Source: a virus
Direction: 5' to 3' (one strand)
Virus record (IMG/VR): IMGVR_UViG_3300013116_000221
Coordinates: 1-22,027 of that record
DNA: 22,027 nucleotides
The position numbers and the translations under genes are program-made. Below the pieces are notes generated by a model. The model was not told the origin of the DNA, made no database searches, and worked only from the letters and a program-made list of their open reading frames with translations. Positions 8,085-17,619 of this stretch are shown piece by piece (positions within the stretch are counted from its first letter, which is position 1; each line of letters opens with the position of its first letter).

Positions 8085-8109
8085 ACTTTTATTTTTTTTC
8101 TATTAGGGG

Positions 8110-8139
8110 TTGACAACCGCAATGGATTCCACATACTGT
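8110..8139 (+). promoter_or_regulatory. Promoter of the 8145 gene, predicted leaderless
   Basis: TTGACA (8110-8115), 18-nt spacer, TACTGT (8134-8139), then 5 nt to ATG. Initiation about 7 nt after the -10 box would fall on the start codon. Confidence 0.75.
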
Positions 8140-8144
8140 AAGAC

Positions 8145-8324
8145 ATGATAAGCAATAAAGAAATCGACAACGTCATTGACCACCTCACGCAAGCGAGCTA
8201 CAACACTCAGCGCAAGCTGTACCCTGAGATCAAAGCTAGTCGTTGGGGCAAAGTTTACGGCGAGGGCGTAGCAAAAAAACTTGAAAGTAATTTTCAAAAA
8301 CACTTGACAATCGCACAAAAATAA
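8145..8324 (+). CDS. Small protein, paralog of the 9849 gene
   Basis: 59 residues. It shares its plan with the 60-residue product at 9849-10031: (V/E)VIDHLT near the start, then RKL-PEI--SRWGK(V/I)YGE in the middle, and a C-terminus LT-A-K. The family is unknown; the conserved SRWGK-YGE block is probably functional. The final codons (TTG ACA ...) are at the same time the -35 box of the next gene's promoter, and the TAA stop lies in that promoter's spacer. No Shine-Dalgarno sequence. Confidence 0.75.
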   Translation: MISNKEIDNVIDHLTQASYNTQRKLYPEIKASRWGKVYGEGVAKKLESNFQKHLTIAQK

Positions 8325-8333
8325 CCATACTAT
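8304..8333 (+). promoter_or_regulatory. Promoter embedded in the end of the 8145 gene
   Basis: TTGACA (8304-8309), 18-nt spacer, TACTAT (8328-8333), 5 nt to the ATG at 8339. The spacer half CACAAAAATAACCATACTAT recurs almost exactly at 8539-8558. Confidence 0.75.
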
Positions 8334-8338
8334 AAATC

Positions 8339-8524
8339 ATGAGTAAAATTGAATCAATAATTGAAGCTGAGTGCTACGATTGGAAGCCTTCCGATATTGA
8401 ATGGTCTCTGCGAAAAGAAGATGTACCAGAAATTGCAAGAACCATTAAGAAACTTCTCATTGAAGAGATTAAAAACTACGCAGAACATATTGACGATGCG
8501 GTTCGATTTATAGACGATTTTTAG
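8339..8524 (+). CDS. Small acidic protein, unknown
   Basis: 61 residues, helical and acidic, with the stretch ARTIKKLLIEEIKNYAEHI and the end FIDDF. No known motif. The start is fixed by the promoter whose -10 box ends 5 nt upstream. Confidence 0.7.
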   Translation: MSKIESIIEAECYDWKPSDIEWSLRKEDVPEIARTIKKLLIEEIKNYAEHIDDAVRFIDDF

Positions 8525-8994: not shown

Positions 8995-9006
8995 CACCGA
9001 AGCCCC

Positions 9007-9083
9007 TAAGTCGCTGACAGTCAACGACTTACGGGGCCGAGGCCGCCCCGCGCGCGTAAGTGCTTGATACTCAACGACTTACG
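9007..9083 (+). repeat. Array repeat copy 1 (hairpin - GC core - hairpin)
   Basis: Hairpin A at 9007-9033 (TAAGTCGCTGAC against GTCAACGACTTA), GC core GGGGC...GCCCC at about 9033-9050, hairpin B at 9055-9083 (CGTAAGT/ACTTACG with an inner TTGA/TCAA). Confidence 0.9.
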
Positions 9084-9128
9084 ACACGAAAAAAACTTTA
9101 AAAAACTTAAAAAAACTTTGCGATAAGC

Positions 9129-9156
9129 TTGACTTGCCACTTCTTTAACCTATACT
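9129..9156 (+). promoter_or_regulatory. Promoter of the 9163 gene
   Basis: TTGACT (9129-9134), 16-nt spacer, TATACT (9151-9156), 6 nt to ATG. Confidence 0.7.
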
Positions 9157-9162
9157 GTAAGC

Positions 9163-9342
9163 ATGATTAAATATAACGAATTGCACGACCTCTCTTGCCA
9201 ATACTGGGATGCTCTTGACCGCCAAGATTATGACTGGGCTGACTTCATCGACTCATGCCTTGAGCGTGAAGGCGTGGAGCGTCTTCCTCGCGAAGATTGC
9301 GAAGAGCCCATCCTTGACCTTTCTCCTCTCGAAGTAAACTAA
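9163..9342 (+). CDS. Small acidic protein, unknown
   Basis: 59 residues, acidic, with QYWDALDRQDYDWADFID near the middle of the N-terminal half and two Cys. First gene of a two-gene unit with the DUF3846 protein, which starts 4 nt later and has no promoter of its own. Confidence 0.65.
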   Translation: MIKYNELHDLSCQYWDALDRQDYDWADFIDSCLEREGVERLPREDCEEPILDLSPLEVN

Positions 9343-9346
9343 CCAA

Positions 9347-9682
9347 ATGACGATTATGACAAAAGCAATACTAGTAGACCCTTTTCTCCCCGCGATCTCA
9401 ACTGTTGAGGTTGACGGGTTCGAAGATATCCAACGCATGATCGATTGCCGCTGCTTTACTTGTGTGAGGTTTCCCGATGGCAAGCATGTCGCATACATTG
9501 ACGACGAAGGATTAATCAATGGTACGCAAAGAGGCGTTAGGTTTATCGACAAGATTTACCCCGATGCCTTAGCTGGTCGCGTTCTTATCCTTGCCGACGA
9601 CGGGCAAGGTGGCGACGCTGACTGCGAGCTGACAGGCGCTGATATCCAAGCGATGATAAAAGGAATCGTGGAATTCGGATAA
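9347..9682 (+). CDS. DUF3846-like protein
   Basis: 111 residues with the DUF3846 pattern: a short strand (AILVDPFLPAISTVEVDGF), a helix (EDIQRMID), the strand pair VRFPDGKHVAYIDDEGLING, and a late segment AGRVLILADDGQGGDADCEL corresponding to the family's G-A-V-G-DDEGGD motif. DUF3846 proteins are small phage and plasmid proteins of unknown biochemical role. The gene is cotranscribed with the 9163 gene and ends 14 nt before repeat 2. Confidence 0.7.
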   Translation: MTIMTKAILVDPFLPAISTVEVDGFEDIQRMIDCRCFTCVRFPDGKHVAYIDDEGLINGTQRGVRFIDKIYPDALAGRVLILADDGQGGDADCELTGADIQAMIKGIVEFG

Positions 9683-9696
9683 AAAAGCTTGACACC

Positions 9697-9775
9697 CGTA
9701 AGTTGCTGATTATCAACGACTTACGGGCCCAGGGCCGCCCGCGCCGCGCAAGTGCTTGATAACCAAGGACTTGCG
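9697..9775 (+). repeat. Array repeat copy 2, with compensatory stem change
   Basis: Hairpin A at 9697-9725 has the common stem CGTAAGT/ACTTACG. Hairpin B at 9747-9775 has CGCAAGT/ACTTGCG: both arms changed together, so pairing is kept. GC core at about 9725-9746. TTGACA lies immediately upstream (about 9690-9695). Confidence 0.9.
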
Positions 9776-9812
9776 TAATCTAAAATAAAAAACAAAAAAG
9801 TTTCCAAAACGC

Positions 9813-9840
9813 TTGACAACCACACAAAATTTCCTATTCT
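9813..9840 (+). promoter_or_regulatory. Promoter of the 9849 gene
   Basis: TTGACA (9813-9818), 16-nt spacer, TATTCT (9835-9840), 8 nt to ATG. Confidence 0.65.
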
Positions 9841-9848
9841 ATAAGATA

Positions 9849-10031
9849 ATGAAAGACACAAACAAATTAATCACCGAAGTAATCGACCACCTAACTTTTT
9901 CTAGCTATGCTCACAACCGCAAGCTAAATCCCGAAATCTCACCTTCTCGTTGGGGCAAGATCTACGGAGAAAAAGAAGTTGTTTTAATGGAAAAAACTTT
10001 CCAAAATACCTTGACAACCGCAAAAAAATAA
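9849..10031 (+). CDS. Small protein, paralog of the 8145 gene
   Basis: 60 residues: VIDHLTF--SYAHNRKLNPEI--SRWGKIYGE, matching the 8145 product. As in that gene, the last codons contain the -35 box of the next promoter (10011). The duplication of gene plus embedded promoter suggests that the two travelled as one unit. Function unknown. Confidence 0.75.
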   Translation: MKDTNKLITEVIDHLTFSSYAHNRKLNPEISPSRWGKIYGEKEVVLMEKTFQNTLTTAKK

Positions 10032-10040
10032 TCATACTGT
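10011..10040 (+). promoter_or_regulatory. Promoter embedded in the end of the 9849 gene
   Basis: TTGACA (10011-10016), 18-nt spacer, TACTGT (10035-10040), 5 nt to the ATG at 10046. Confidence 0.75.
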
Positions 10041-10045
10041 ATAAC

Positions 10046-10204
10046 ATGAACATTAGAAAAGAAATTAAAGTCTCATCAATTCTAACCGACGAAGTATTGC
10101 GTCAACAAAAAGAGTTAATCTCTAAAGGCTTTCAGCACGTCAATAACATTAAAAATGGTCGTCTTTCGGATGGTTACACAATGATTTTTGTTAAACAAGG
10201 GTAA
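10046..10204 (+). CDS. Small basic protein, unknown
   Basis: 52 residues: MNIRKEIKVSSILTDEVL, then ISKGFQHVNNIKNGRLSDGY and a hydrophobic end. No known family. The start is chosen from the promoter-to-ATG spacing; the longer open frame overlaps the 9849 gene. Confidence 0.65.
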   Translation: MNIRKEIKVSSILTDEVLRQQKELISKGFQHVNNIKNGRLSDGYTMIFVKQG

Positions 10205-10208
10205 TAAT

Positions 10209-10358
10209 ATGAAAATTTGGGAACTTTTAACTCTGGTGCTTTTTGGACTCATTCTTGGGTTGGCAATGTTTGTCGGGCTTAAGCTCGACGACAAAGCTCA
10301 ACAAACGAAAGAAGCGACATGGGAACGCTTCGAGGAAATCGACAACGCAATCAAATAA
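10209..10358 (+). CDS. Small single-span membrane protein
   Basis: 49 residues: residues about 4-24 are a hydrophobic segment (LLTLVLFGLILGLAMFVG), followed by a charged helical tail (DDKAQQTKEATWERFEEID). It is followed after 1 base by a second small membrane protein and, one repeat later, by an exported lytic enzyme, so a holin or spanin-like role is possible. This is inference; such tiny proteins are not diagnostic. Confidence 0.65.
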   Translation: MKIWELLTLVLFGLILGLAMFVGLKLDDKAQQTKEATWERFEEIDNAIK

Positions 10359-10359
10359 A

Positions 10360-10497
10360 ATGAAAATAACTATTGACAAAACAACTGCAATTTGCTTGAC
10401 AGTCGCGGCTTGCACTTACTTCATCGCAAATAAAATTAGCTGGTTTCAAAAAATGTTTGACACTGTCTCAGGGGTTGCGATAAACTCAATCATGTAA
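10360..10497 (+). CDS. Small single-span membrane protein whose stop lies in a repeat
   Basis: 45 residues: a short polar start, then the hydrophobic stretch AICLTVAACTYFIANKI and a second mildly hydrophobic tail. It begins 1 base after the preceding stop. Its TAA stop is the TAA of the GTAAGTG that opens repeat 3. Confidence 0.6.
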   Translation: MKITIDKTTAICLTVAACTYFIANKISWFQKMFDTVSGVAINSIM

Positions 10498-10571
10498 GTG
10501 CTTGAATATCAACGACTTACGGGGCCAGGGCCGCCCGCGCCGCGCAAACCCTTGATAAACAACGACTTACG
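10494..10571 (+). repeat. Array repeat copy 3
   Basis: Hairpin A 10494-10520, GC core about 10521-10542, half B 10543-10571, where the left arm has decayed (CGCAAAC) while the right arm CAACGACTTACG is intact. Confidence 0.88.
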
Positions 10572-10595
10572 CAACTAAAAAAAAGAAAAAGACTC

Positions 10596-10626
10596 TTGAC
10601 AACCGCACAAAAATAACCATCATACA
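10596..10626 (+). promoter_or_regulatory. Promoter of the 10631 gene
   Basis: TTGACA (10596-10601), conserved spacer CACAAAAATAACCAT, and CATACA at 10621-10626 as the closest -10 box, 4 nt before ATG. The -10 is weaker than in sister promoters. Confidence 0.5.
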
Positions 10627-10630
10627 AACT

Positions 10631-10963
10631 ATGAAACCACTAAGCAAAACACTGACAGAACTAGGGATTGCATTTAGCTTTCCTATTGAGATTAAAGACG
10701 CTAATGGCAAGCCGACTTACCGAGAGTACAGCGATGGCTACTGGTATAAGTTTGAGTATGATGACAATAATAAAATAACTTACTGCAAGAATAGTCATAA
10801 CTACTCGTATAGGTGTCAGTATGATGACAATGGCAACAGGAATTACTTCGAGGACAGCAATGGTCTCCGAGAAGGTGCGCCACGTCCAGCCAAATCAACT
10901 AATACCTGCGAAGGCAAGGTTGTCGAAGTGGACGGGATCAAATATAAATTAACAGCACTATGA
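10631..10963 (+). CDS. YD-repeat-like small protein
   Basis: 110 residues. The middle holds repeats of the kind Y-Y-DGYW-KFEYDDNNKITY and QYDDNGNRNYFEDSNG, resembling the YDDNGN/ENSDGYW repeats of small phage proteins and, distantly, RHS/YD repeats. The C-terminus is a short GKVVEVDGIKYKL beta segment. Its TGA overlaps the ATG of the lytic-enzyme gene by 4 bases, so the two are coupled. Function unknown. Confidence 0.65.
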   Translation: MKPLSKTLTELGIAFSFPIEIKDANGKPTYREYSDGYWYKFEYDDNNKITYCKNSHNYSYRCQYDDNGNRNYFEDSNGLREGAPRPAKSTNTCEGKVVEVDGIKYKLTAL

Positions 10964-11391
10964 AAAAATTAATCTTACTAACATTCGCCATCTGCGCATC
11001 AATAGCACAAGGCGCGACATTAACTGATTTAATTGTTGCTTTAGAAAAAGTGGAAAGCAATTGCAATCCTTCCGCTTATAACGAAAGCGAAAAAGCGTTA
11101 GGCTCTCTTCAGATTAGACCTATCATGTTGGCTGATTATAATCGCATCTATGGCACGAATATAAAGCACAAGCAAATGTCAAACCGCTTGACTTCCCATA
11201 ATATCGCAATCGGAATCTTTCGTCACTATGAAAAGTATATCAAACGTAATGGCGAAAAGTTAAATGCAAAACATCTTGCCTTCGTTTGGAATGGAGGAGG
11301 ATCAGCTTGGAAACGGGTTGCAAATCCGAAAAGCGACAAAAAGCAAAAAAATCTAGAAATTTACTGGACAAAGGTCTCAAAGCATCTGTAA
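10960..11391 (+). CDS. Exported lytic transglycosylase-like (lysozyme-fold) protein
   Basis: 143 residues. Residues 1-18 form a signal peptide (MKKLILLTFAICASIAQG, cleavage likely before A19). The mature part has the SLT/lysozyme-like pattern: candidate catalytic Glu in ALEKVES at about 31, NCNPSAYN, then GSLQI and later AFVWNGGGSAW (the YNGG-type motif). It would cut peptidoglycan after Sec export, as an endolysin or a remodelling enzyme. Coupled with the YD-like gene by ATGA. The stop TAA is inside repeat 4. Confidence 0.75.
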   Translation: MKKLILLTFAICASIAQGATLTDLIVALEKVESNCNPSAYNESEKALGSLQIRPIMLADYNRIYGTNIKHKQMSNRLTSHNIAIGIFRHYEKYIKRNGEKLNAKHLAFVWNGGGSAWKRVANPKSDKKQKNLEIYWTKVSKHL

Positions 11392-11415
11392 GTTACTGGT
11401 ATTCAACGACTTACG
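11388..11415 (+). repeat. Array repeat copy 4 (single hairpin, no GC core)
   Basis: GTAAGTTACTGG...TCAACGACTTACG only; the GC core and second hairpin are absent. It shows that the element can exist as a half unit. The following 40 bases are identical to those after repeat 5. Confidence 0.8.
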
Positions 11416-11449
11416 CAACAAAAAAACTTTAATCTTTTTTCAAAATCGC

Positions 11450-11477
11450 TTGACAGCCTAACCTTTTTTCTTATTCT
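11450..11477 (+). promoter_or_regulatory. Promoter of the 11504 gene
   Basis: TTGACA (11450-11455), 16-nt spacer, TATTCT (11472-11477). The ATG is 26 nt further on, so this mRNA has a short leader, without a Shine-Dalgarno sequence. Confidence 0.6.
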
Positions 11478-11503
11478 TTTTTAAGCATTAACAACATCAC
11501 TTT

Positions 11504-11698
11504 ATGATTGATAAACGAACAGAAAAACAAATCAAGAGGCTCTTCTCGGTGGTAGTAGACGACTCACTCATGGACGCTGACTTTGAATATGTCCAAGCAG
11601 CTATTGCTTGCGTTCGTAAAGAGTGTGATCAAGTTGAAGAATACATGAAGGAGATGGATAGACTTGCTGATGAAGATTCTATATCTAACACAATATGA
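11504..11698 (+). CDS. Small acidic helical protein
   Basis: 64 residues: basic start (IDKRTEKQIKRLFS), then acidic helices (ADFEYVQAAIACVRKEC, VEEYMKEMDRLADED). Unknown. Overlaps the next micro-gene by 4 bases (ATGA). Confidence 0.65.
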   Translation: MIDKRTEKQIKRLFSVVVDDSLMDADFEYVQAAIACVRKECDQVEEYMKEMDRLADEDSISNTI

Positions 11699-11787
11699 GA
11701 CAATTCACCAACGGCGACACGGGCGAGGTCAAGACTATAGCTGAGGTCTTTGCCCTAATCCGCGAAGAGAGAGAAGGAGAGCCGTAA
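11695..11787 (+). CDS. Micro-gene (30 residues), stop in repeat 5
   Basis: ATG overlapping the previous TGA, encoding MRQFTNGDTGEVKTIAEVFA and a charged end REEREGEP. The TAA stop is the TAA of the CGTAAGTC opening repeat 5. Translational coupling and the repeat-provided stop, as in neighbouring genes, support it. Confidence 0.5.
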   Translation: MRQFTNGDTGEVKTIAEVFALIREEREGEP

Positions 11788-11861
11788 GTCTCTGACAGTC
11801 AACGACTTACGGGCCCAGGGCCGCGCCCGCCGCGCAAGTGCTTGATATACAACGACTTACG
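11783..11861 (+). repeat. Array repeat copy 5
   Basis: Hairpin A 11783-11811, GC core about 11811-11832, hairpin B 11833-11861 (CGCAAGT against ACTTACG, a C-A mismatch in the stem). Confidence 0.9.
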
Positions 11862-11895
11862 CAACAAAAAAACTTTAATCTTTTTTCAAAATCGC

Positions 11896-11923
11896 TTGAC
11901 AACCTCACCAAAATTCTTATTGT
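11896..11923 (+). promoter_or_regulatory. Promoter of the 11931 gene
   Basis: TTGACA (11896-11901), 16-nt spacer, TATTGT (11918-11923), 7 nt to ATG. It belongs to the block duplicated from 11404-11455. Confidence 0.65.
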
Positions 11924-11930
11924 TTTAATT

Positions 11931-12113
11931 ATGACTACTACTGATTCCTTCTCTGATTCTTCTTTTGACCCTTGGGCTGACTTGTCCGAGGCCGAGTTCG
12001 CTGAGTTCGAAGCCGATATGTTGCGCGAGCAACAGGAGCGTGAAAGCGCCGAGGCGATGGCTCACGAAGCTCAGCTTGAGCGCGAGCTTATGGAAAGAGC
12101 CGACTTCCGCTAA
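11931..12113 (+). CDS. Small very acidic coiled-coil-like protein
   Basis: 60 residues, about a third Asp/Glu: a Ser/Asp-rich start (TDSFSDSSFDPWADLSEAEF) followed by a long charged helix (MLREQQERESAEAMAHEAQL). DNA mimicry or protein-partner binding can be imagined, but nothing proves it. The longer frame from 11838 overlaps repeat 5 and the promoter, so I use 11931. Confidence 0.65.
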   Translation: MTTTDSFSDSSFDPWADLSEAEFAEFEADMLREQQERESAEAMAHEAQLERELMERADFR

Positions 12114-12120
12114 GGGGTTG

Positions 12121-12198
12121 CGCAAGCCCTTGACAGTCAACGACTTACGGGGCCGAGGCCGCCCCGCGCGCGTAAGTCCTTGATACTCAGCAACTTAC
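12121..12198 (+). repeat. Array repeat copy 6
   Basis: Hairpin A 12121-12149 (CGCAAG left arm), GC core identical to that of copy 1 (GGGGCCGAGGCCGCCCC), hairpin B 12171-12198 with a decayed right arm (CAGCAACTTAC). Confidence 0.88.
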
Positions 12199-12202
12199 AG
12201 AG

Positions 12203-12226
12203 GTTCCCGAAATTCATTTCGGGAAC
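12203..12226. other. Perfect 11-bp inverted repeat
   Basis: GTTCCCGAAAT (12203-12213) and ATTTCGGGAAC (12216-12226) separated by 2 bases. No T-run follows on either side, so an operator-like protein site or an RNA hairpin is more likely than a terminator. Confidence 0.6.
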
Positions 12227-12272
12227 ATACATAACTGCTTGATCATTAGATATATACGCTATTTGTCTTGTA

Positions 12273-12294
12273 TTTGCGTTCGATTTGCGTTCGA
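12273..12294 (+). repeat. Tandem 11-bp direct repeat
   Basis: TTTGCGTTCGA occurs twice back to back (12273-12283, 12284-12294), followed by a partial third unit TTTGATTTGGCG. It lies about 35 bases upstream of the promoter of ncRNA candidate C and could be a regulator site. Confidence 0.55.
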
Positions 12295-12327
12295 TTTGAT
12301 TTGGCGCTATTTTTTTTCAAAAAAGGG

Positions 12328-12355
12328 TTGACTAATGCCCAAAACAATACATAAT
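12328..12355 (+). promoter_or_regulatory. Promoter of ncRNA candidate C
   Basis: TTGACT (12328-12333), 16-nt spacer, CATAAT (12350-12355); no start codon with a usable frame follows. Confidence 0.6.
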
Positions 12356-12800
12356 GTAAAACATAATCGTTCTTTAACATTTTACAATTTAGACAAGCGA
12401 GTCCTAGAAGCTGGTAGATGAAATTGCTTTAGTAGGCTACCAAGGTTAAGCAAATCGTTTGTCTCTTATCTAACTCGAAGAAAGCCAGGTAAACAGCCGA
12501 GCATGGGGATCTGCTGGCAATGCGTCGAGGACAGCGTGGGGGTGCGTTGATAAGATTGATTAGTTAAACACCCTCAAGATTTAACCTCGCTTGGATGACG
12601 TCTGCCTTAGAAGGGCATCCCCAAGCCAACTGGATTCGCAAATAGCGAAGAGGGAGTTGCCACTGCTCTGAGGTTTTAACATTTTAAGCGGAGAATTTGA
12701 ACGCTCGACCTAAACGCCTAAAGGGTTCACCCAAGCGGAAATGAGTCGAAAGACCGAGAGCGCCAACCAATTGAAACAGGTTATATCCGCACCAATCTAA
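12356..12800 (+). ncRNA. Large structured RNA candidate C, about 440 nt
   Basis: No ORF, own promoter, and nested helices: AGACAAGCGA (12391-12400) with TCGTTTGTCT (12455-12464), 10 bp; TCTTATC (12464-12470) with GATAAGA (12549-12555); GGGTG/CACCC (12539-12574); AACCTC (about 12582) with GAGGTT (about 12673) closing a domain with GGATG/CATCC, TTCGC/GCGAA and CAACT/AGTTG; then GCGGA/TCCGC (about 12688-12790) enclosing CGCTC/GAGCG and a GTC-GAAA-GAC tetraloop stem. The order and nesting suggest a three-domain RNA. It is unlike tmRNA, RNase P or SRP RNA to the eye. It could be an unassigned phage RNA class or a long leader of the 12880 gene, which however has its own promoter. Confidence 0.65.
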
Positions 12801-12808
12801 AAAAACTA

Positions 12809-12837
12809 TTGACAAAGCTCAACTTTTGTGATTTAAT
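12809..12837 (+). promoter_or_regulatory. Promoter of the 12880 gene
   Basis: TTGACA (12809-12814), 17-nt spacer, TTTAAT (12832-12837), with an overlapping TATAAT at 12837-12842. The leader of about 36 nt contains a Shine-Dalgarno-like GGAG at 12866-12869, exceptional in this array. Confidence 0.65.
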
Positions 12838-12879
12838 ATAATCTTAACAATCGAAAATCCAAAACGGAGAAAAGAAAAC

Positions 12880-13131
12880 ATGAAAAACCTAAAACTAAAT
12901 CCAATCCAAAAAACTCGCCTTGCTATTCGTCGCGCTTTCGCTAAGAATAATATGGCTCAAATCACCTACAAGAAAAAGTCTGATGAGACTGTTGGCTCTT
13001 ATGTCATTGACATGAATTTCATTGAAGACTTGGGCGATATGTTCAACACCTATTCTTACGCCACTGGCGCGAAGCACAGCGGCATCCGCTCCTTCTATAA
13101 AAACCGAATCGAAAAAATTAAACTTGTGTAG
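12880..13131 (+). CDS. Small basic protein with a WYL/SH3-like pattern
   Basis: 83 residues. Basic start (KLNPIQKTRLAIRRAF), then QITYKKKSDETVGSYVI and the end GIRSFYKNRIEKIKL, resembling the beta strands and the terminal IR-F---RI--I motif of WYL-like ligand-sensing modules. This is a weak pattern match. Unusually it has a Shine-Dalgarno sequence 10 nt before the ATG and two strong terminators after it, so it is a self-contained, probably well expressed transcription unit. Confidence 0.65.
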   Translation: MKNLKLNPIQKTRLAIRRAFAKNNMAQITYKKKSDETVGSYVIDMNFIEDLGDMFNTYSYATGAKHSGIRSFYKNRIEKIKLV

Positions 13132-13153
13132 CGTGATTGGTTAACGTGTGTGT

Positions 13154-13185
13154 GCCGCCTCGTCTTGTGGTTAGGGCGAGGCGGC
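13154..13185 (+). terminator. First of two tandem terminators
   Basis: GCCGCCTCG (13154-13162) pairs with CGAGGCGGC (13177-13185); the tail TTAAATTTCTTTT is T-rich. Confidence 0.75.
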
Positions 13186-13224
13186 TTAAATTTCTTTTGT
13201 TGTAGTCGTGTGCAACGTGTGTGT

Positions 13225-13262
13225 GCCGTCTTACCTTTTGTGTATGGGGTAAGGCGGCTTTT
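13225..13262 (+). terminator. Second tandem terminator
   Basis: GCCGTCTTACC (13225-13235) pairs over 11 bp with GGTAAGGCGGC (13248-13258), followed by TTTT. The 15 bases AACGTGTGTGTGCCG at its left edge also precede the first terminator, so one arose from the other or both face the same constraint. Confidence 0.78.
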
Positions 13263-13283
13263 CGCTATATGGATCAAGAGTTC

Positions 13284-13362
13284 TGTAAGTCCTTGATGGT
13301 CAACGATTTACGCGGCGGGGGCCAGCGCAGACCCGCAAGTGCTTGATAATCAACAACTTACG
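13284..13362 (+). repeat. Array repeat copy 7
   Basis: Hairpin A 13284-13312 (right arm ATTTACG, keeping pairing through a G-T pair), GC core about 13312-13333, hairpin B 13334-13362 (CGCAAGT left arm, CAACAACTTACG right arm). Confidence 0.88.
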
Positions 13363-13397
13363 AATTCAAATAAATTTAAATAAATTTTTAAAAAGGG

Positions 13398-13426
13398 TTG
13401 ACTCGTCGAATTAAATAATACATTAT
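13398..13426 (+). promoter_or_regulatory. Promoter of the 13433 gene
   Basis: TTGACT (13398-13403), 17-nt spacer, CATTAT (13421-13426), 6 nt to ATG. Confidence 0.6.
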
Positions 13427-13432
13427 ACTAAT

Positions 13433-13723
13433 ATGAAAATGACAAAAACAACTACAGAAAACCTCACCCTTGAAAACTCATTCGGAACAATCCGCGAAGA
13501 AAATGGAGTCCAGATGAATATATCCGTGCATGTCCAGCCAAACAAAAATTATGGTTCGTTTGAAATGTATGACGAAGAAACTGGAGGTGAAGAATGGTAT
13601 GCCGAAGGAGGTCTTTGGTTTGAGGGCAAGGAACTGGTTGACTACGATGGAGTTTTTGCTCTATCTCCGTCAATTATTCAAATCTTAGAAGACAAAGGTT
13701 ATGATGCTTCTTATGCAAAGTAA
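13433..13723 (+). CDS. Acidic protein, unknown
   Basis: 96 residues, acidic and probably beta-rich: MNISVHVQPNKNYGSFEMYD, EEWYAEGGLWFEGKELVDYD, with a helical end (PSIIQILEDKGYDASYAK). The layout resembles small phage proteins of unknown function. The next gene's promoter starts 3 nt after its stop. Confidence 0.65.
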   Translation: MKMTKTTTENLTLENSFGTIREENGVQMNISVHVQPNKNYGSFEMYDEETGGEEWYAEGGLWFEGKELVDYDGVFALSPSIIQILEDKGYDASYAK

Positions 13724-13726
13724 TAC

Positions 13727-13755
13727 TTGACTAATCACAAAAAATAATACATCAT
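13727..13755 (+). promoter_or_regulatory. Promoter of the 13762 gene
   Basis: TTGACT (13727-13732), 17-nt spacer, CATCAT (13750-13755), 6 nt to ATG. The sequence ACAAAAAATAATACAT resembles the spacer of the preceding promoter. Confidence 0.55.
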
Positions 13756-13761
13756 ATCAAC

Positions 13762-14103
13762 ATGAAGAAAATAACCTTATCACTACACCGCAGCGAAGAT
13801 GAACCTTTTGTTCAGAAATGGGAGGTCGCTCGCAAATGTGTTTTTGCTGTTCGGCTGAACGTAGAGCATATCGAATATCCACATATTCCGTCAAAGCTTG
13901 CTGAGCTTTTGTTTCACGTTACTAACGCGCCGACCGAGCTTATCACTAAAACACACGAAAAAATTCTTTTGGCTCTGTGGGAAAACTGCTCGGACAAGAG
14001 AACCTTTCACTCTACAAGTGTCGGAGATGTCGTTAAGATCTGTGATTGTAACGGACACCCAACAACTTTAATGTGCAAATCAGTTGGATGGGAGGAGCTA
14101 TAA
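13762..14103 (+). CDS. Hypothetical protein, first gene of a three-gene unit
   Basis: 113 residues with a basic N-terminal half and Cys residues at the end (VVKICDCNGHPTTLMCKSVG), perhaps metal-binding. No family recognised. The stop TAA shares a base with the ATG of the next gene (TAATG), giving translational coupling. Confidence 0.65.
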   Translation: MKKITLSLHRSEDEPFVQKWEVARKCVFAVRLNVEHIEYPHIPSKLAELLFHVTNAPTELITKTHEKILLALWENCSDKRTFHSTSVGDVVKICDCNGHPTTLMCKSVGWEEL

Positions 14104-14282
14104 TGACAATCGATCAAATAAATTCATACTGCTACGAACATTACGAAGACGGCGGCGATATTGTAGTAGAGTGCATGGAAGATGAAGAGAAGCTCAAACG
14201 TTTTGAAACTTTGGAAGACCTCAGACAATACATTGAGATACGCCAAGAGCATCGCCGAGAAATTGAATCAACCATTTGGTAA
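14103..14282 (+). CDS. Small acidic protein, translationally coupled
   Basis: 59 residues from the ATG overlapping the upstream stop: MTIDQINSYCYEHYEDGGDI, then EKLKRFETLEDLRQYIEIRQ. Acidic, helical C-terminal half. The next gene begins 1 base after its stop. Confidence 0.65.
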   Translation: MTIDQINSYCYEHYEDGGDIVVECMEDEEKLKRFETLEDLRQYIEIRQEHRREIESTIW

Positions 14283-14283
14283 T

Positions 14284-14631
14284 ATGAAAGTAAGAGTATA
14301 CAGAAACCTGCACAAAAAATGTTTTTCGGTTCAAGAGAAGACAGAAAAAGGCTGGCGAGTCAAACGCCACGCCACTTCTATCGTGCTTAAAAACGCCTCG
14401 TTTCGTGTTTCTGAAGCTGGACGCAAAAGAGTGTTAAAAGAAAAAAGAAAAAATGTTCACGCTTTTATAGAGGGCTATGAAATAAAAAACAGCACACAAA
14501 AACACAAGTGCGAAGTTTGTGTTAGCTACAATCCTTACAAGTGTGACCACTTTGAAACTAACTCCCACGATCCAGTTTTTTTTGCTCGACTCGCTCATGT
14601 TAATCTCTCAGGGTGCAAAATCCATAAGTAG
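14284..14631 (+). CDS. Phage conserved hypothetical protein, stop in repeat 8
   Basis: 115 residues. The N-terminal domain has a recognisable phage family pattern: VRVYRNLHKKCFSVQ, then SIVLKNASFRVSEAGRKRVL and KRKNVHAFIEGY, very basic. The C-terminal part adds Cys/His pairs (HKCEVC, YNPYKCDHF) and may bind zinc. Function unknown; the basic character suggests nucleic-acid contact. The TAG stop is inside repeat 8, whose left arm has TAAGTAG in place of the usual TAAGTCC. Confidence 0.7.
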   Translation: MKVRVYRNLHKKCFSVQEKTEKGWRVKRHATSIVLKNASFRVSEAGRKRVLKEKRKNVHAFIEGYEIKNSTQKHKCEVCVSYNPYKCDHFETNSHDPVFFARLAHVNLSGCKIHK

Positions 14632-14701
14632 TTGATATTCAACGACTTACGCGGCCGCGGCGGCCCCCGCGTCGTAAGTCCTTGATATTCAACGACTTAC
14701 G
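14623..14701 (+). repeat. Array repeat copy 8
   Basis: Hairpin A 14623-14651, core CGGCCGCGGCGGCCCCCG at about 14652-14669, hairpin B 14673-14701 (CGTAAGTCCTTGA with TCAACGACTTACG, only one internal mismatch). Confidence 0.92.
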
Positions 14702-14777
14702 CAACTTTGACTGCTCTGGGGCTCAAGTTCCGTGCCAACTTTTTTTCTAATTATTTTTTTATTTTTTTGGTAAACGC

Positions 14778-14806
14778 TTGACACCACATTGATTTTCTCA
14801 TATGAT
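14778..14806 (+). promoter_or_regulatory. Strong promoter of the DUF932 gene
   Basis: TTGACA (14778-14783), 17-nt spacer, TATGAT (14801-14806). The leader is about 37 nt, AT-rich, with no Shine-Dalgarno sequence. Confidence 0.75.
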
Positions 14807-14849
14807 GTAATCTCACAATTAAATAATAATACTATATAAAGTTAATACT

Positions 14850-15650
14850 ATGAACATCGAAAATACACACCCTGCAAATCAAGAACTCCTTCGCCTTAAC
14901 GTGTGCGAATCAAAACAGTGCGACTTCTCTAAGGTTCAAGCTGTCTCTACTCCCGACGCTTCTGATCGTTGGACTCCTATCGCTCACGATGCTTTGGTTG
15001 GTCAATTCCGCGAGTCTATCGGCAACACTGATCTTGAGATCGTGAATGAGCATCACGCGTTGCACCGCTATGGTCAACGCTACTTTGGCTTGTTCCAAGT
15101 CAAGGGCGTAGGTCGCAAGCATGGCGATGACGTTGGCACTGTTATGTGTCTTCGCAATTCTCACGATAAGGCTTTCCGCGCTGGCATCTCTGCTGGTGAT
15201 GCGCCTTTCGTTTGCTCCAACTTGATCTTCTCTAACGAGATCGTGCTTGGTCGCCGCCATACTACTCACATCATGCGCGACTTACCGCAAATCATTTCAC
15301 GTGCGATTGGTCAACTTATGGAGTCTTGGATTACTACGGACAACCGCATTGACTCCTACAAGTCAACCGAGATTGATGATCGTGTGGCTCACGACTTAAT
15401 CCTGCGCGGCTTTCAAGCTGGCGCGTGTGGCAAGACGCAAATTGCTGACATCTTCACACAGTGGCACAAGCCCGAACATGAGAACTTTGAGGGTCGCGAC
15501 CTTTGGAGTCTTCAAAACGCCTTCACGAACGTGTGGAGGGGCAACACGCTCAACACGGCGAACCGCTCAAGCTCGCTCTACTCCGTGCTTGACACCTTCG
15601 CGGCTCACGCCAAACCAGTTGAGGGCGAATTAGTTCTCAACGCTTCCTAA
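14850..15650 (+). CDS. DUF932-family phage/plasmid protein
   Basis: 266 residues. The DUF932 pattern is clear in the middle: RYGQRYFGLFQVKG, GTVMCLRNSHDKAFRAGI, APFVCSNLIFSNEIVLGRRHT. The family is widespread in phages and plasmids and is of unknown biochemical function. Codon use is visibly GC-richer than in the tail genes of the window, and expression signals are the strongest in the array (TTGACA/TATGAT promoter, ideal terminator), so this is probably an abundant early protein. Confidence 0.85.
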   Translation: MNIENTHPANQELLRLNVCESKQCDFSKVQAVSTPDASDRWTPIAHDALVGQFRESIGNTDLEIVNEHHALHRYGQRYFGLFQVKGVGRKHGDDVGTVMCLRNSHDKAFRAGISAGDAPFVCSNLIFSNEIVLGRRHTTHIMRDLPQIISRAIGQLMESWITTDNRIDSYKSTEIDDRVAHDLILRGFQAGACGKTQIADIFTQWHKPEHENFEGRDLWSLQNAFTNVWRGNTLNTANRSSSLYSVLDTFAAHAKPVEGELVLNAS

Positions 15651-15658
15651 CGGCTCTC

Positions 15659-15690
15659 GCCTCACCCTTCGGGGTGGGGCTTTTCTTTTT
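15659..15690 (+). terminator. Intrinsic terminator of the DUF932 gene
   Basis: GCCTCACCC (15659-15667), loop TTCG, GGGTGGGGC (15672-15680), then TTTTCTTTTT. Confidence 0.9.
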
Positions 15691-15702
15691 CTGCTTGACA
15701 TT

Positions 15703-15781
15703 CGTAAGTGCTTGATAATCAACGACTTACGCGGCCGCGGCCGCCCCCGCGTCGCAAGTCCTTGGTATTCAACGACTTACG
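15703..15781 (+). repeat. Array repeat copy 9
   Basis: Hairpin A 15703-15731, core CGGCCGCGGCCGCCCCCG at about 15732-15749, hairpin B 15753-15781. A TTGACA lies 2 bases upstream (15695-15700), as at copy 2. Confidence 0.92.
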
Positions 15782-15871
15782 CAACTTCTTTCACGCGCTG
15801 GTCGCTGAGCTTGTCAAGTCTTTTCTTTAGGTTTTTTTTGAAAAGTTTTTTTAATTTATTTTAAATATCGC

Positions 15872-15900
15872 TTGACTTGCGCGACAAATTCTCAGATAAT
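15872..15900 (+). promoter_or_regulatory. Promoter of the GP88-like gene
   Basis: TTGACT (15872-15877), 17-nt spacer, GATAAT (15895-15900), 6 nt to the ATG at 15907: another predicted leaderless start. Confidence 0.72.
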
Positions 15901-15906
15901 GCTTTT

Positions 15907-16614
15907 ATGACTAAACTACTAAACAACGGAAACTCGAAAACAATCAAAGGCGAAAAACTTGGATGGACTACTTTTGGTCTACACCTTGCGCCTTTTAACT
16001 TGGCTGGCAAAAATGTTTGCGCCCATGCTTCGGCTGGATGCGCTGCTGCTTGTCTCAACACTGCTGGACGCGGCGCGATGTCGAATGTGCAAAAATCTCG
16101 CATTGCAAAAACACAAAAATTCTTTGCCGATAAAAATGCTTTCGTATGGCAACTTGCTAAAGAGATTAGCAACGCTGTTAAACTTTCCGCAAAAAAAGAC
16201 ATGAAGCCATGCTTTCGTCTCAATCTTACAAGCGATCTGCCTTGGGAAAACATAAAAGTTGAATCGCACGGAAAAAAGCTTTCGCTTATGGAGATGTATC
16301 CCGATGTGCAGTTTTACGATTATACCAAGTCTTTTCCGCGTATGCAAAAATATCTAAAAGGTGAAATGCCAAGCAACTATCATCTTACCTTTTCGCGTAG
16401 TGAATGTAATGACAACTTAGTTGACTTGGTTCTCAAGCTTGGCGGAAATGTCGCGGCAGTCTTTCGCAATGAGTTTCCTAAGTCTTGGAAGTCTGTGGAA
16501 GTTGTCAACGGTGACGAAACAGACTTGCGTTTTTTAGATGCGCAAAATAAAATTGTTGGACTTGTGCAAAAAGGACTTGCCAAGAAGGACGAAACAGGCT
16601 TTGTTATAGGCTAG
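15907..16614 (+). CDS. GP88-like conserved phage protein
   Basis: 235 residues. It has the conserved plan of the phage 'gene product 88' family: NSKTIKGEKLGW, LAPFNLAGKNVCAHASAGC followed by AAACLNTAGRG (a CX(n)CX3C cysteine set), KSRIAKTQKFF, RLNLTSDLPWE, then VQFYDYTKSF and NYHLTFSRSE, and GGNVAAVFR. The invariant cysteines suggest a metal or cluster site, but the activity is not established. I use the ATG at 15907, 6 nt after the -10 box; the frame is also open further upstream, across the promoter. Confidence 0.78.
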   Translation: MTKLLNNGNSKTIKGEKLGWTTFGLHLAPFNLAGKNVCAHASAGCAAACLNTAGRGAMSNVQKSRIAKTQKFFADKNAFVWQLAKEISNAVKLSAKKDMKPCFRLNLTSDLPWENIKVESHGKKLSLMEMYPDVQFYDYTKSFPRMQKYLKGEMPSNYHLTFSRSECNDNLVDLVLKLGGNVAAVFRNEFPKSWKSVEVVNGDETDLRFLDAQNKIVGLVQKGLAKKDETGFVIG

Positions 16615-16617
16615 TAA

Positions 16618-16680
16618 ATGATAATAATTCTAACCCTCTTAATCTTCTTAATGATAACACTCAACCATGAATCCTACTGA
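16618..16680 (+). CDS. Possible hydrophobic micro-protein (20 residues)
   Basis: ATG 3 bases after the preceding stop encodes IIILTLLIFLMITL and a short polar end: one membrane span and nothing else. It overlaps the next start by 14 bases. Weakly supported. Confidence 0.3.
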   Translation: MIIILTLLIFLMITLNHESY

Positions 16681-16873
16681 ACGATATAATCTAATCAAAA
16701 AAATCTGTGAAAGCAAAAATCAAATCAACTCGCACGGGCAACTGCCCACGACCGAAACCGACTTGCAAGACGAATTCTTACGCTTCCAAACTAGCGTCGA
16801 ACCTCTTGCAACTAAACAAGACTCAAGGCTATGGCAAAAAAGTTTCTTCCAAAACTTAGTCTTCGGCAGTTAG
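16667..16873 (+). CDS. Small hypothetical protein
   Basis: 68 residues, polar: MNPTERYNLIKKICESKNQI, then TTETDLQDEFLRFQTSVEPL. Unknown. Its last 43 bases overlap the next gene in another frame. Confidence 0.5.
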   Translation: MNPTERYNLIKKICESKNQINSHGQLPTTETDLQDEFLRFQTSVEPLATKQDSRLWQKSFFQNLVFGS

Positions 16874-16974
16874 AAAAAACCGTTAGGAAAGGGTTAGGCT
16901 TAATGCCTTCCCGCCCCTTTCGCGACCGCTCGAAATACAACCGCAAAAACAAACACAAAAAAACGTTAGACTAA
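16831..16974 (+). CDS. Small highly basic protein
   Basis: 47 residues: MAKKFLPKLSLRQLEKTVRK, then SRPFRDRSKYNRKNKHKKT. About a third Arg/Lys, so RNA or DNA binding is likely, resembling short basic phage proteins ending RSKYNRK-KHK. It begins inside the 16667 gene in a different frame, and the next gene starts 1 base after its stop. Confidence 0.6.
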   Translation: MAKKFLPKLSLRQLEKTVRKGLGLMPSRPFRDRSKYNRKNKHKKTLD

Positions 16975-16975
16975 A

Positions 16976-17152
16976 ATGAACTACAGTAAAAAATTCGGCT
17001 TCTATAATCCTAAAACTAAAATTGCTCAAGTGTATGACGGCTCCAAGCGCACTCCAACTAATACCGTTGTAAATGGTAAGGTTGGCTTTAGCATACCAAA
17101 AATTTTTGACGGTAAATGCTCGCGAGCGCAGTTTGATAAACTGATCTCATAA
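16976..17152 (+). CDS. Small basic protein, stop in repeat 10
   Basis: 58 residues: MNYSKKFGFYNPKTKIAQVY, then VVNGKVGFSIPKIFDGK and a short helix. Probably a small beta protein. The TAA stop lies at the left edge of repeat 10 (TCATAAGCGC). Confidence 0.6.
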   Translation: MNYSKKFGFYNPKTKIAQVYDGSKRTPTNTVVNGKVGFSIPKIFDGKCSRAQFDKLIS

Positions 17153-17270
17153 GCGCTTGAGCTTCAACGACTTAGGGATCGGCTAGAATTCCCTAAGTCG
17201 CTGGTAGTCAACGACTTACGCGGCGGGGGCCGCCCCCGCGTCGTAAGTGCTTGATATAGAACGACTTACG
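17148..17270 (+). repeat. Array repeat copy 10 (three-hairpin version)
   Basis: An extra hairpin at 17148-17177 (TAAGCGCTTGA/TCAACGACTTA) precedes a full element: hairpin A 17191-17220, core CGGCGGGGGCCGCCCCCGCG at 17221-17240, hairpin B 17242-17270. A short EcoRI-site-containing spacer separates the extra hairpin. Confidence 0.9.
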
Positions 17271-17276
17271 CAACTT

Positions 17277-17305
17277 GCTCGCAGGAGACAGAGCGGGCTT
17301 TTTTT
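17277..17305 (+). terminator. Intrinsic terminator
   Basis: GCTCGC (17277-17282) pairs with GCGGGC (17293-17298), followed by seven T. It lies immediately after repeat 10, which implies that the repeat does not itself terminate transcription. Confidence 0.7.
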
Positions 17306-17316
17306 AAAAATAATAG

Positions 17317-17344
17317 TTGACAGAACCATTTTTTTCGTTAGACT
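17317..17344 (+). promoter_or_regulatory. Promoter of the 17351 gene
   Basis: TTGACA (17317-17322), 16-nt spacer, TAGACT (17339-17344), 6 nt to ATG. Confidence 0.62.
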
Positions 17345-17350
17345 GTAGTC

Positions 17351-17545
17351 ATGATAATCAAAAAAGATGACCTCCTCCGCCCCACTCGCAACCACGCTCG
17401 CACCGTCAAGGTAATGTTTACCTACTCTTGTGGGAAACTCGCCATGATCTACTGCCCTACTGTTGGGCGTGGCGATGTCAGGCACATCGACCTCTACGAA
17501 GGTTGGGCTATCGAGCGTGACGGGAATCACGTCGGGACTGTGTAA
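17351..17545 (+). CDS. Small protein, last gene of the array
   Basis: 64 residues: MIIKKDDLLRPTRNHARTVK, VMFTYSCGKLAMIYCPTVG, then DLYEGWAIERDGNHVGTV. Beta-rich, two Cys. Unknown. The TAA stop is part of the GTGTAAGTCC opening repeat 11. Confidence 0.62.
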   Translation: MIIKKDDLLRPTRNHARTVKVMFTYSCGKLAMIYCPTVGRGDVRHIDLYEGWAIERDGNHVGTV

Positions 17546-17619
17546 GTCCTTGCTAGCCAACGACTTGTGGGGCGGGGGCCGCCCGCGACGCGCAACTCCT
17601 TGATATACAACAACTTACA
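17541..17619 (+). repeat. Array repeat copy 11 (decayed)
   Basis: Half A 17541-17569 (TGTAAGT left arm, ACTTGTG right arm), GC core about 17569-17588, half B 17591-17619 (CGCAACTCCTTGA against CAACAACTTACA). Most diverged copy, at the very end of the array. Confidence 0.85.

Follow-up and report, generated by a model that had tools for sequence, protein, structure and literature searches.

A paired palindrome as a candidate recombination seam between small-gene cassettes in an uncultured clade of tailed phages

The promoter-early stem-loop (PeSL) cassettes of the T4-type phages RB49 and phi1 were reportedly described by Arbiol in 2010 and Comeau in 2014. Another kind of repeat, the REP/BIME elements with their RAYT transposases, consists of paired short palindromes that lie between genes in many copies. 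Here we analyze the 22,027-base virus record IMGVR_UViG_3300013116_000221 (this whole stretch of DNA is called the window), in which a block of small genes (9005..17619, + strand, by site scan) is divided by copies of an element made of two 29-bp imperfect palindromes, sites A and B, that point in the same direction and flank a 21-bp GC-rich core. In its working, the nearest known thing is the PeSL as described in a passage of PMC4503421. We hold, with a little more confidence than doubt, that the element may be a DNA recombination seam that separates promoter-gene cassettes, some with a terminator, in the variable block of a large uncultured clade of tailed phages. The assembly and exchange of the many small accessory genes of phages are largely unexplained, and a seam defined by sequence would let cassettes be delimited automatically in a clade with no close isolates in the collection that we searched. 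If the mapping of the similarity switch given below holds, either the PeSL principle has been reinvented in a quite different clade or tailed phages have a cassette system that is site-specific; in both cases, sequencing reads would allow tests of gene exchange in phages.

As in PeSLs, stem-loop repeats and sigma70-like promoters stand between the small genes of a variable region, and gene order shuffles at the repeats. The promoter is joined to the element (promoter-like matches follow 166 of 341 elements, against 43 in a shuffle). A PeSL stem-loop is also an effective terminator, a role that the element may or may not share: separate intrinsic terminators precede it in 37 of 341 cases, and it has no U-run. 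Unlike PeSLs, the repeat here comprises two direct palindromes around a GC core, with terminators apart from it; its sites are conserved clade-wide while its cores differ by genome, and the terminase matches listed include no T4-type phages. The attC arrays of integrons, as portrayed in a part of PMC4792948, are likewise arrays of small genes with a palindromic, recombination-like site near the stop codon at each junction. Unlike in integrons, integrase matches over the cut-off were found in 0 of 44 records, the cassettes have their own promoters, and sequence, not structure alone, is conserved. Recognition by structure only, of the attC type, is not what the element suggests, its arm sequence being conserved and its pairing without covariation. 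The integron R boxes RYYYAAC and GTTRRRY occur in 42 and 30 of 391 elements, and both together in 1 of 391.

Paired short palindromes between genes, in many copies, are also the likeness to REP/BIME elements, but here the pair is direct rather than inverted, is confined to one block and comes with no Y1 transposase (0 of 43 records, a host enzyme being possible). Serine resolvase res sites differ in that serine recombinases were found in 0 of 43 records, where again a host enzyme is possible. The core sites of tyrosine recombinases, such as dif/XerCD, resemble ours in layout: each site has two inverted 11-bp arms and a 7-bp centre, and similarity switches at the centre of site A. Unlike dif, however, the element has two sites, its arms are unlike the dif consensus, and no phage tyrosine recombinase was found over the cut-off. 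Our best reading is a recombination seam that works like PeSLs or integron arrays; we do not class it as a member of either. We found no account of this element at title or abstract level among open-access papers.

Gene order was compared in 175 genome pairs of at most 97% median identity and at least 5 reciprocal hits, using neighbors that both had orthologues. Neighbors were separated at 163 of 220 junctions across elements, compared with 23 of 53 long gaps without an element (Fisher, 3e-5) and 136 of 408 short gaps (6e-23). When relatives above 93% were merged and those with fewer than 3 hits left out (72 representatives), the counts were 177 of 226 elements, 18 of 40 long gaps and 134 of 389 short gaps, with bootstrap differences of 0.05-0.62 for the first comparison and 0.25-0.60 for the second. 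Where neighbors were kept the element was almost always kept with them, in both genomes at 54 junctions and in one only at 6. Between G029 and L067, whose cores are of different class and length, the same downstream promoter and gene follow different cores at two junctions, with downstream proteins 98% and 90% identical. Compared with the related contig G002, the window has several small genes moved, lost or added around elements, together with some gene changes that have no element at their edge. As judged from these comparisons, the elements mark junctions where gene order changes.

We then located the switch in similarity with a linkage test, in which each segment's similarity was taken relative to that between non-orthologous elements from the two genomes compared, with averages over gene families. 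Only clusters of exactly two sites entered the test, with elements at most 400 bp from a gene and relatives no closer than 97%. With only the upstream gene shared (379 comparisons, 30 families), similarity was in excess over the last 40 bases ahead of the element (+0.128, +0.100) and in the left arm of site A (+0.085, interval 0.044 to 0.129), and the spacer of that site gave -0.006 (-0.056 to 0.042). With only the downstream gene shared (232 comparisons, 29 families), the 60 bases that follow the element showed the excess (+0.069, +0.084, +0.057), the B spacer a weak one (+0.048) and site A none. With both genes shared (49 comparisons), the site A spacer reached +0.149 (0.084 to 0.215) and the core lacked an excess (+0.02), and the spacer contrast between both-shared and upstream-only comparisons was 0.174 (0.077 to 0.275). 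Coding overlap is not the cause of the left-arm signal, because the signal stays when the stop codon is at least 10 bp from the element (302 comparisons; left arm +0.093, spacer +0.003). Across these comparisons, the left arm of site A is the last part of a changed junction to share the similarity linked to the upstream gene, and similarity linked to the downstream gene is found after site B. An earlier note on this DNA had listed a recombination site for gene cassettes among its suggestions; both the preference of order breaks for elements and the similarity switch inside the element support it.

In the mechanism that we propose, a phage or host protein would recognize both 29-bp sites by their nearly fixed bases, and exchange would fall in or beside the site A spacer, sometimes further in. 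Exchange among the elements of one genome would keep the core uniform, and whole transcription units could be swapped between related phages without breaking genes. The phage's own general enzymes could possibly carry out the recombination, since a RecA-like protein and a PD-(D/E)XK nuclease are among the proteins of G001 (a 112.8-kb contig that contains the window's sequence) common to 9 to 11 of 14 other records, along with a DnaB-like helicase, a primase and a homing-endonuclease-like protein; a dedicated or host site-specific recombinase is possible as well. A more specific form, which we put forward tentatively and regard as doubtful, is an integron-like phage cassette system: an unrecognized recombinase of the phage core or the host would perform site-specific exchange in the site A spacer, cassettes would be traded clade-wide, and repeated exchange would keep the core uniform. 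A conserved core protein of 252 amino acids (L205:10572-11330) was considered as a strand-annealing protein and set aside, profile searches giving no significant match.

Several results weigh against a recombination seam. Tyrosine recombinase (PF00589) was over the cut-off in 0 of 44 records, which may be fragments, with one weak sub-threshold match in G013; serine recombinase (PF00239) and Y1 transposase (PF01797) were each found in 0 of 43. The boundaries of units are safe places to break anyway, the long-gap control is small, the gene calls are crude and the comparisons are not independent. The element is commoner at convergent junctions, which fits a gene-end role. In the linkage test, the spacer keeps +0.138 when the stop is less than 10 bp from the element (27 comparisons). 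Upstream-only sharing gives +0.082 at bases 20-40 after the element; at protein identity of at least 70% it gives +0.028 in site B and +0.091 in the next 25 bases (unaveraged), and at 60% or more +0.084 in the first 8 core bases. Downstream-only sharing gives +0.017 in both the whole of site A and the core, significant before family averaging, and at identity of at least 60% the last 20 bases ahead of the element have +0.052; similarity in the right arm of B is not tied to the downstream gene. Missed genes would blur classes like this and may be the cause of the ill-fitting results.

The core has its own pattern of similarity. When orthologous elements (51) are set beside 182 non-orthologous pairs, identity is 0.85 and 0.75 for site A (p 2e-8), and 0.83 and 0.77 for site B (p 0.005). 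The corresponding values for the core are 0.78 and 0.74 (p 0.13), with same-genome cores at 0.82 (p 0.08 against orthologous ones). Agreement over the first 8 core bases is 0.64 within a genome and 0.42 between genomes (45 genomes), compared with differences of only 0.035-0.056 for the arms. By these measures cores are alike within a genome, with no clear tie to orthology. Because of this within-genome agreement and the weak orthology signal, the uniformity of the core looks like within-genome homogenization, to which the shared descent of copies also contributes. One core is present in both orientations between similar sites in L056, an inversion that is indistinguishable from inversion of the whole element. 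Among loci L056, L041 and L035, the L041 group has the loop triplets TTC, GAA, GTA and TAC, which form reverse-complement pairs.

The elements are gathered in one place. In 11 of 12 contigs above 100 kb, all two-site elements lie in a single stretch of about 5-17 kb, with G007 treated as circular and some blocks cut by the contig end; G011 has two clusters, and three shorter stretches agree with one block per genome. The 93 blocks hold 608 clusters, of which 531 have two sites, 48 one, 18 three and 11 more. By a crude gene caller, 28 of 546 elements fall in called genes. When these and 55 elements without a called gene on both sides are left out, elements stand in 77 of 137 convergent, 353 of 1411 co-directional and 33 of 158 divergent gene pairs. 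In 24 of 353 co-directional cases the upstream stop is at -5, the commonest single distance, and the TAA of site A then ends the gene. The separate intrinsic terminators already mentioned (37 of 341, shuffle 2) were called by strict criteria in the interval from the upstream stop to the element; the stretch after the element has one in 1 of 341 cases (shuffle 2), and promoter-like matches precede the element in 34 of 341 (shuffle 14). The usual order, as predicted from these signals, is gene, sometimes terminator, element, promoter, gene.

As far as sequence goes, the evidence points to a DNA element rather than an RNA device, because there is no within-genome covariation, polarity is free of gene direction, and terminators come before the element. 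The covariation test used 239 elements from 53 loci, oriented by gene, with partners shuffled within each locus and loci with fewer than 3 elements dropped. Neither site pairs better than within-locus shuffles (z -0.3, -1.0); pairing in the inner and outer helices falls below the shuffles (z -7.1, -5.4), an effect that we attribute to the shared polarity of the two sites. Of the two checks that the earlier note had proposed, covariation yielded nothing beyond within-genome shuffles, and RNA covariation was rejected on this ground; the other succeeded, the element sitting between different genes in many other genomes. Also rejected were a core hairpin, given its weak fold z-scores (mean -0.68, 38% below -1, 235 cores), and strand-specific wobble, given that G-T and A-C mismatches are about equal (270 and 317 in site A, 256 and 287 in site B, 295 elements). 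Leaving aside elements with a score difference below 4 or without a clear gene direction, polarity is the same as that of the genes in 143 cases and opposite in 116. Where a contig has genes on both strands (11 contigs), two elements whose neighboring genes point in opposite directions share polarity in 74 pairs and differ in 7, pairs that come mostly from few contigs, chiefly of the 42-bp class. Positions 3-4, 10, 18 and 24-25 of the site (AA, T, A, TT) hardly vary, partly perhaps owing to the search pattern, which fixed several such bases in at least one site per locus; these bases suggest recognition by a protein.

Such recognition could also serve another task. A phage or host protein with a different job (regulator, compaction, segregation or packaging) may bind the element, recombination being a side effect of repeated DNA, a possibility that we rate as improbable. 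The nearly invariant bases of each palindrome, a distance between the two sites that is constant within each genome, and a polarity that follows the genome strand (the 74 and 7 pairs above) would all fit it. It sits less well with the confinement to one variable block rather than the whole genome and with the many different spacings between genomes, and it leaves the switch in the site A spacer unexplained. We consider equally improbable a transcription insulator or terminator that ends each unit, at which gene order breaks only as a safe place. The element is most frequent in convergent gaps, site A can supply the stop codon with its TAA, promoters follow, and some copies fold very stably as RNA (z -4.9, -4.5); but the element has no U-run, separate intrinsic terminators lie before it and almost never after it, its polarity is independent of the genes and there is no within-genome covariation. 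The similarity switch, moreover, sits inside the element, and long gaps without an element break less often.

Two further explanations, both raised in the earlier note, appear much less probable. The RNase III sites of T7 between early messages are the model for RNA-processing or stability hairpins, and palindromes between genes with stable predicted folds in some copies recall them. Given the absence of covariation and of any G-U excess over A-C on the gene strand, a polarity not linked to genes (143 to 116) and copies that lie beyond a terminator (37 of 341), this suggestion found no support and we judge it very unlikely. Slightly less credible again is a REP- or MITE-like mobile palindrome that inserts on its own. 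Each genome has many similar copies, and half copies and arrays occur (the 48 single, 18 triple and 11 larger clusters of 608); the case is nevertheless weak, the element being retained where its neighbors are (54 against 6), Y1 transposase being found in 0 of 43 records, and copies keeping to one block in 11 of 12 contigs above 100 kb.

Beyond the window, a one-site pattern search of the virus collection gave at least 119 stretches, on which a weight matrix was trained. At a threshold of 13 bits it scored 1,180 half-sites in 122 loci (1.20 Mb), whereas a dinucleotide-block shuffle gave 0, so that the element recurs far beyond chance; the window duplicates L001-L008 were removed before counting. 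The half-sites pair into 546 elements in 107 loci, with an A-B spacing that is near-fixed inside most loci and differs among them (about 42, 46-48, 50, 52-53 or 58 bp). A strict two-site pattern, which catches just 15 of the 546 virus elements, found 21 stretches in viral_contigs, on 19 contigs. Run against 84,980 species genomes it gave 2, and no host was identified there. One of the two, L128, is a phage-like contig in a metagenome-assembled genome named Rhodobacteraceae; with three elements in the midst of small genes, this 5.7-kb contig (CAKZNY010000259.1) probably comes from a phage and was misbinned. The other, L129, is a lone hairpin beside an apparent tRNA gene, judged by appearance without a tRNA-finder check. 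By these searches, the element is widespread and mainly viral.

A terminase match was found in 37 of 44 records searched, and 29 of 30 extracted terminases form one group (34-100% identity), the outlier G006 resembling a chance pattern match. Neither DNA nor one structural protein revealed close isolates in the phage collection, and the terminase and clamp-loader matches are remote. The terminase matches listed (30 of 61 and 15 of 89 records) are to phages of Bacillus, Lactococcus, Clostridioides, Microcystis and others, with about 25% identity over about 60% of the protein. A terminase profile matched at least 600 virus stretches, and 599 of the 600 listed were confirmed as relatives at E 1e-3. 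Eighteen of 80 listed terminase records, picked by length (G047-G064), include 2 with sites by pattern. In 15 of the 18 the contig ends less than 9 kb from the terminase on the side of the block (the side as in G001, G007, G008 and G012), as if assemblies break at the repeated, variable block. A matrix scan of four of them found the block in G057 and in G052 (scanned at its two ends only), single weak sites in G049 and none in G048. The element is apparently common in the clade and not universal.

The window is 99.96% identical to G001 across its entire length, and the block has the same arrangement there. The window's proteins include PhoH, a clamp-loader-like AAA ATPase, GP88 and DUF932, and it carries eight tRNAs. 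The repeated copies in a common orientation that the earlier note had described are borne out: the + strand carries all of them, as ten complete A-core-B elements, a half copy and an additional half-site. The full elements lie at 9005..9083 (element 1), 9697..9775 (element 2), 10493..10571 (element 3), 11783..11861 (element 5 in the numbering of the earlier note), 12121..12199 (element 6), 13284..13362 (element 7), 14623..14701 (element 8), 15703..15781 (element 9) and 17541..17619 (element 11), the last with its TAA as the stop codon of the gene at 17351-17545, and within a triple element at 17148..17270 (sites at 17148, 17192 and 17242; the full copy starts at 17192). The half element, with one site, is at 11387..11415, and its TAA is the stop codon of the gene at 10960-11391. 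Half-site starts are 50 bp apart, or 44 bp in the first pair of the triple, and the 29-bp half-site consensus is approximately CGTAAGTnnTTGA-nnn-TCAACGACTTACG.

Over sites A and B of ten window copies, the stems comprise 185 Watson-Crick pairs among 220 cells, 9 G-U pairs and 26 mismatches, the variable positions 7-8 being omitted. The inner arms of A and B are complementary at 9 to 12 of 13 pairs, largely as had been claimed. The double change CGCAAGT/ACTTGCG of copy 2 exists, in its site B, but other copies break those stems; the core is GC-rich but not GC-only, since several window cores contain A or T. The five of ten window copies that were folded as RNA have z-scores of -4.9, -4.5, -1.7, -2.1 and -1.6. 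A search of the window with Rfam 15 models found tRNAs only and none for the element. No T-run directly follows any window copy, which agrees with the reported absence of a U-run, and a hairpin with U-run of the intrinsic-terminator kind was not found there. By eye, a terminator-like hairpin and T-run lie upstream of element 9, at about 15655-15690, and the terminator after copy 10 is also a by-eye reading.

Some features of the surroundings may be added. In five related records, the last 10-11 bases of a tRNA-Cys gene replace the left arm of site A (G007 58866-58936 in rotated coordinates; G009 24322-24394; G015 128678-128748; L017 783-854; L083 11681-11752), which speaks for the seam. In G007, G009, G015 and L113, the ends of tRNA-Met genes are no more than 2 bases from an element. 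Many small genes of the window seem by eye to have strong sigma70-like promoters with the -10 box a few bases before the ATG, as if their messages were leaderless (8102-8148, 8296-8342, 9805-9851, 10003-10049 and 10588-10634). Window positions 12205-12875, about 670 bases without a called gene, are partly conserved in G002 (82% over 101 bases); they have no Rfam match at E 1, and 12366-12800 is no more structured than shuffles (z 0.41). A third motif, approximately TTCA-N6-GTGCCAA, stands at a fixed distance after site B in many loci (G007, G009, G003, L049, L124 and others). NTGCCAA at 10-40 bp after an element lies at 19-20 bp in 57 of 82 cases, and 62 of 123 motifs of the NCGTGCCAA type are within 60 bp after an element, where 1.4% are expected. 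The window's copy of this motif, at 14732-14738, is further off, about 31 bp after the element.

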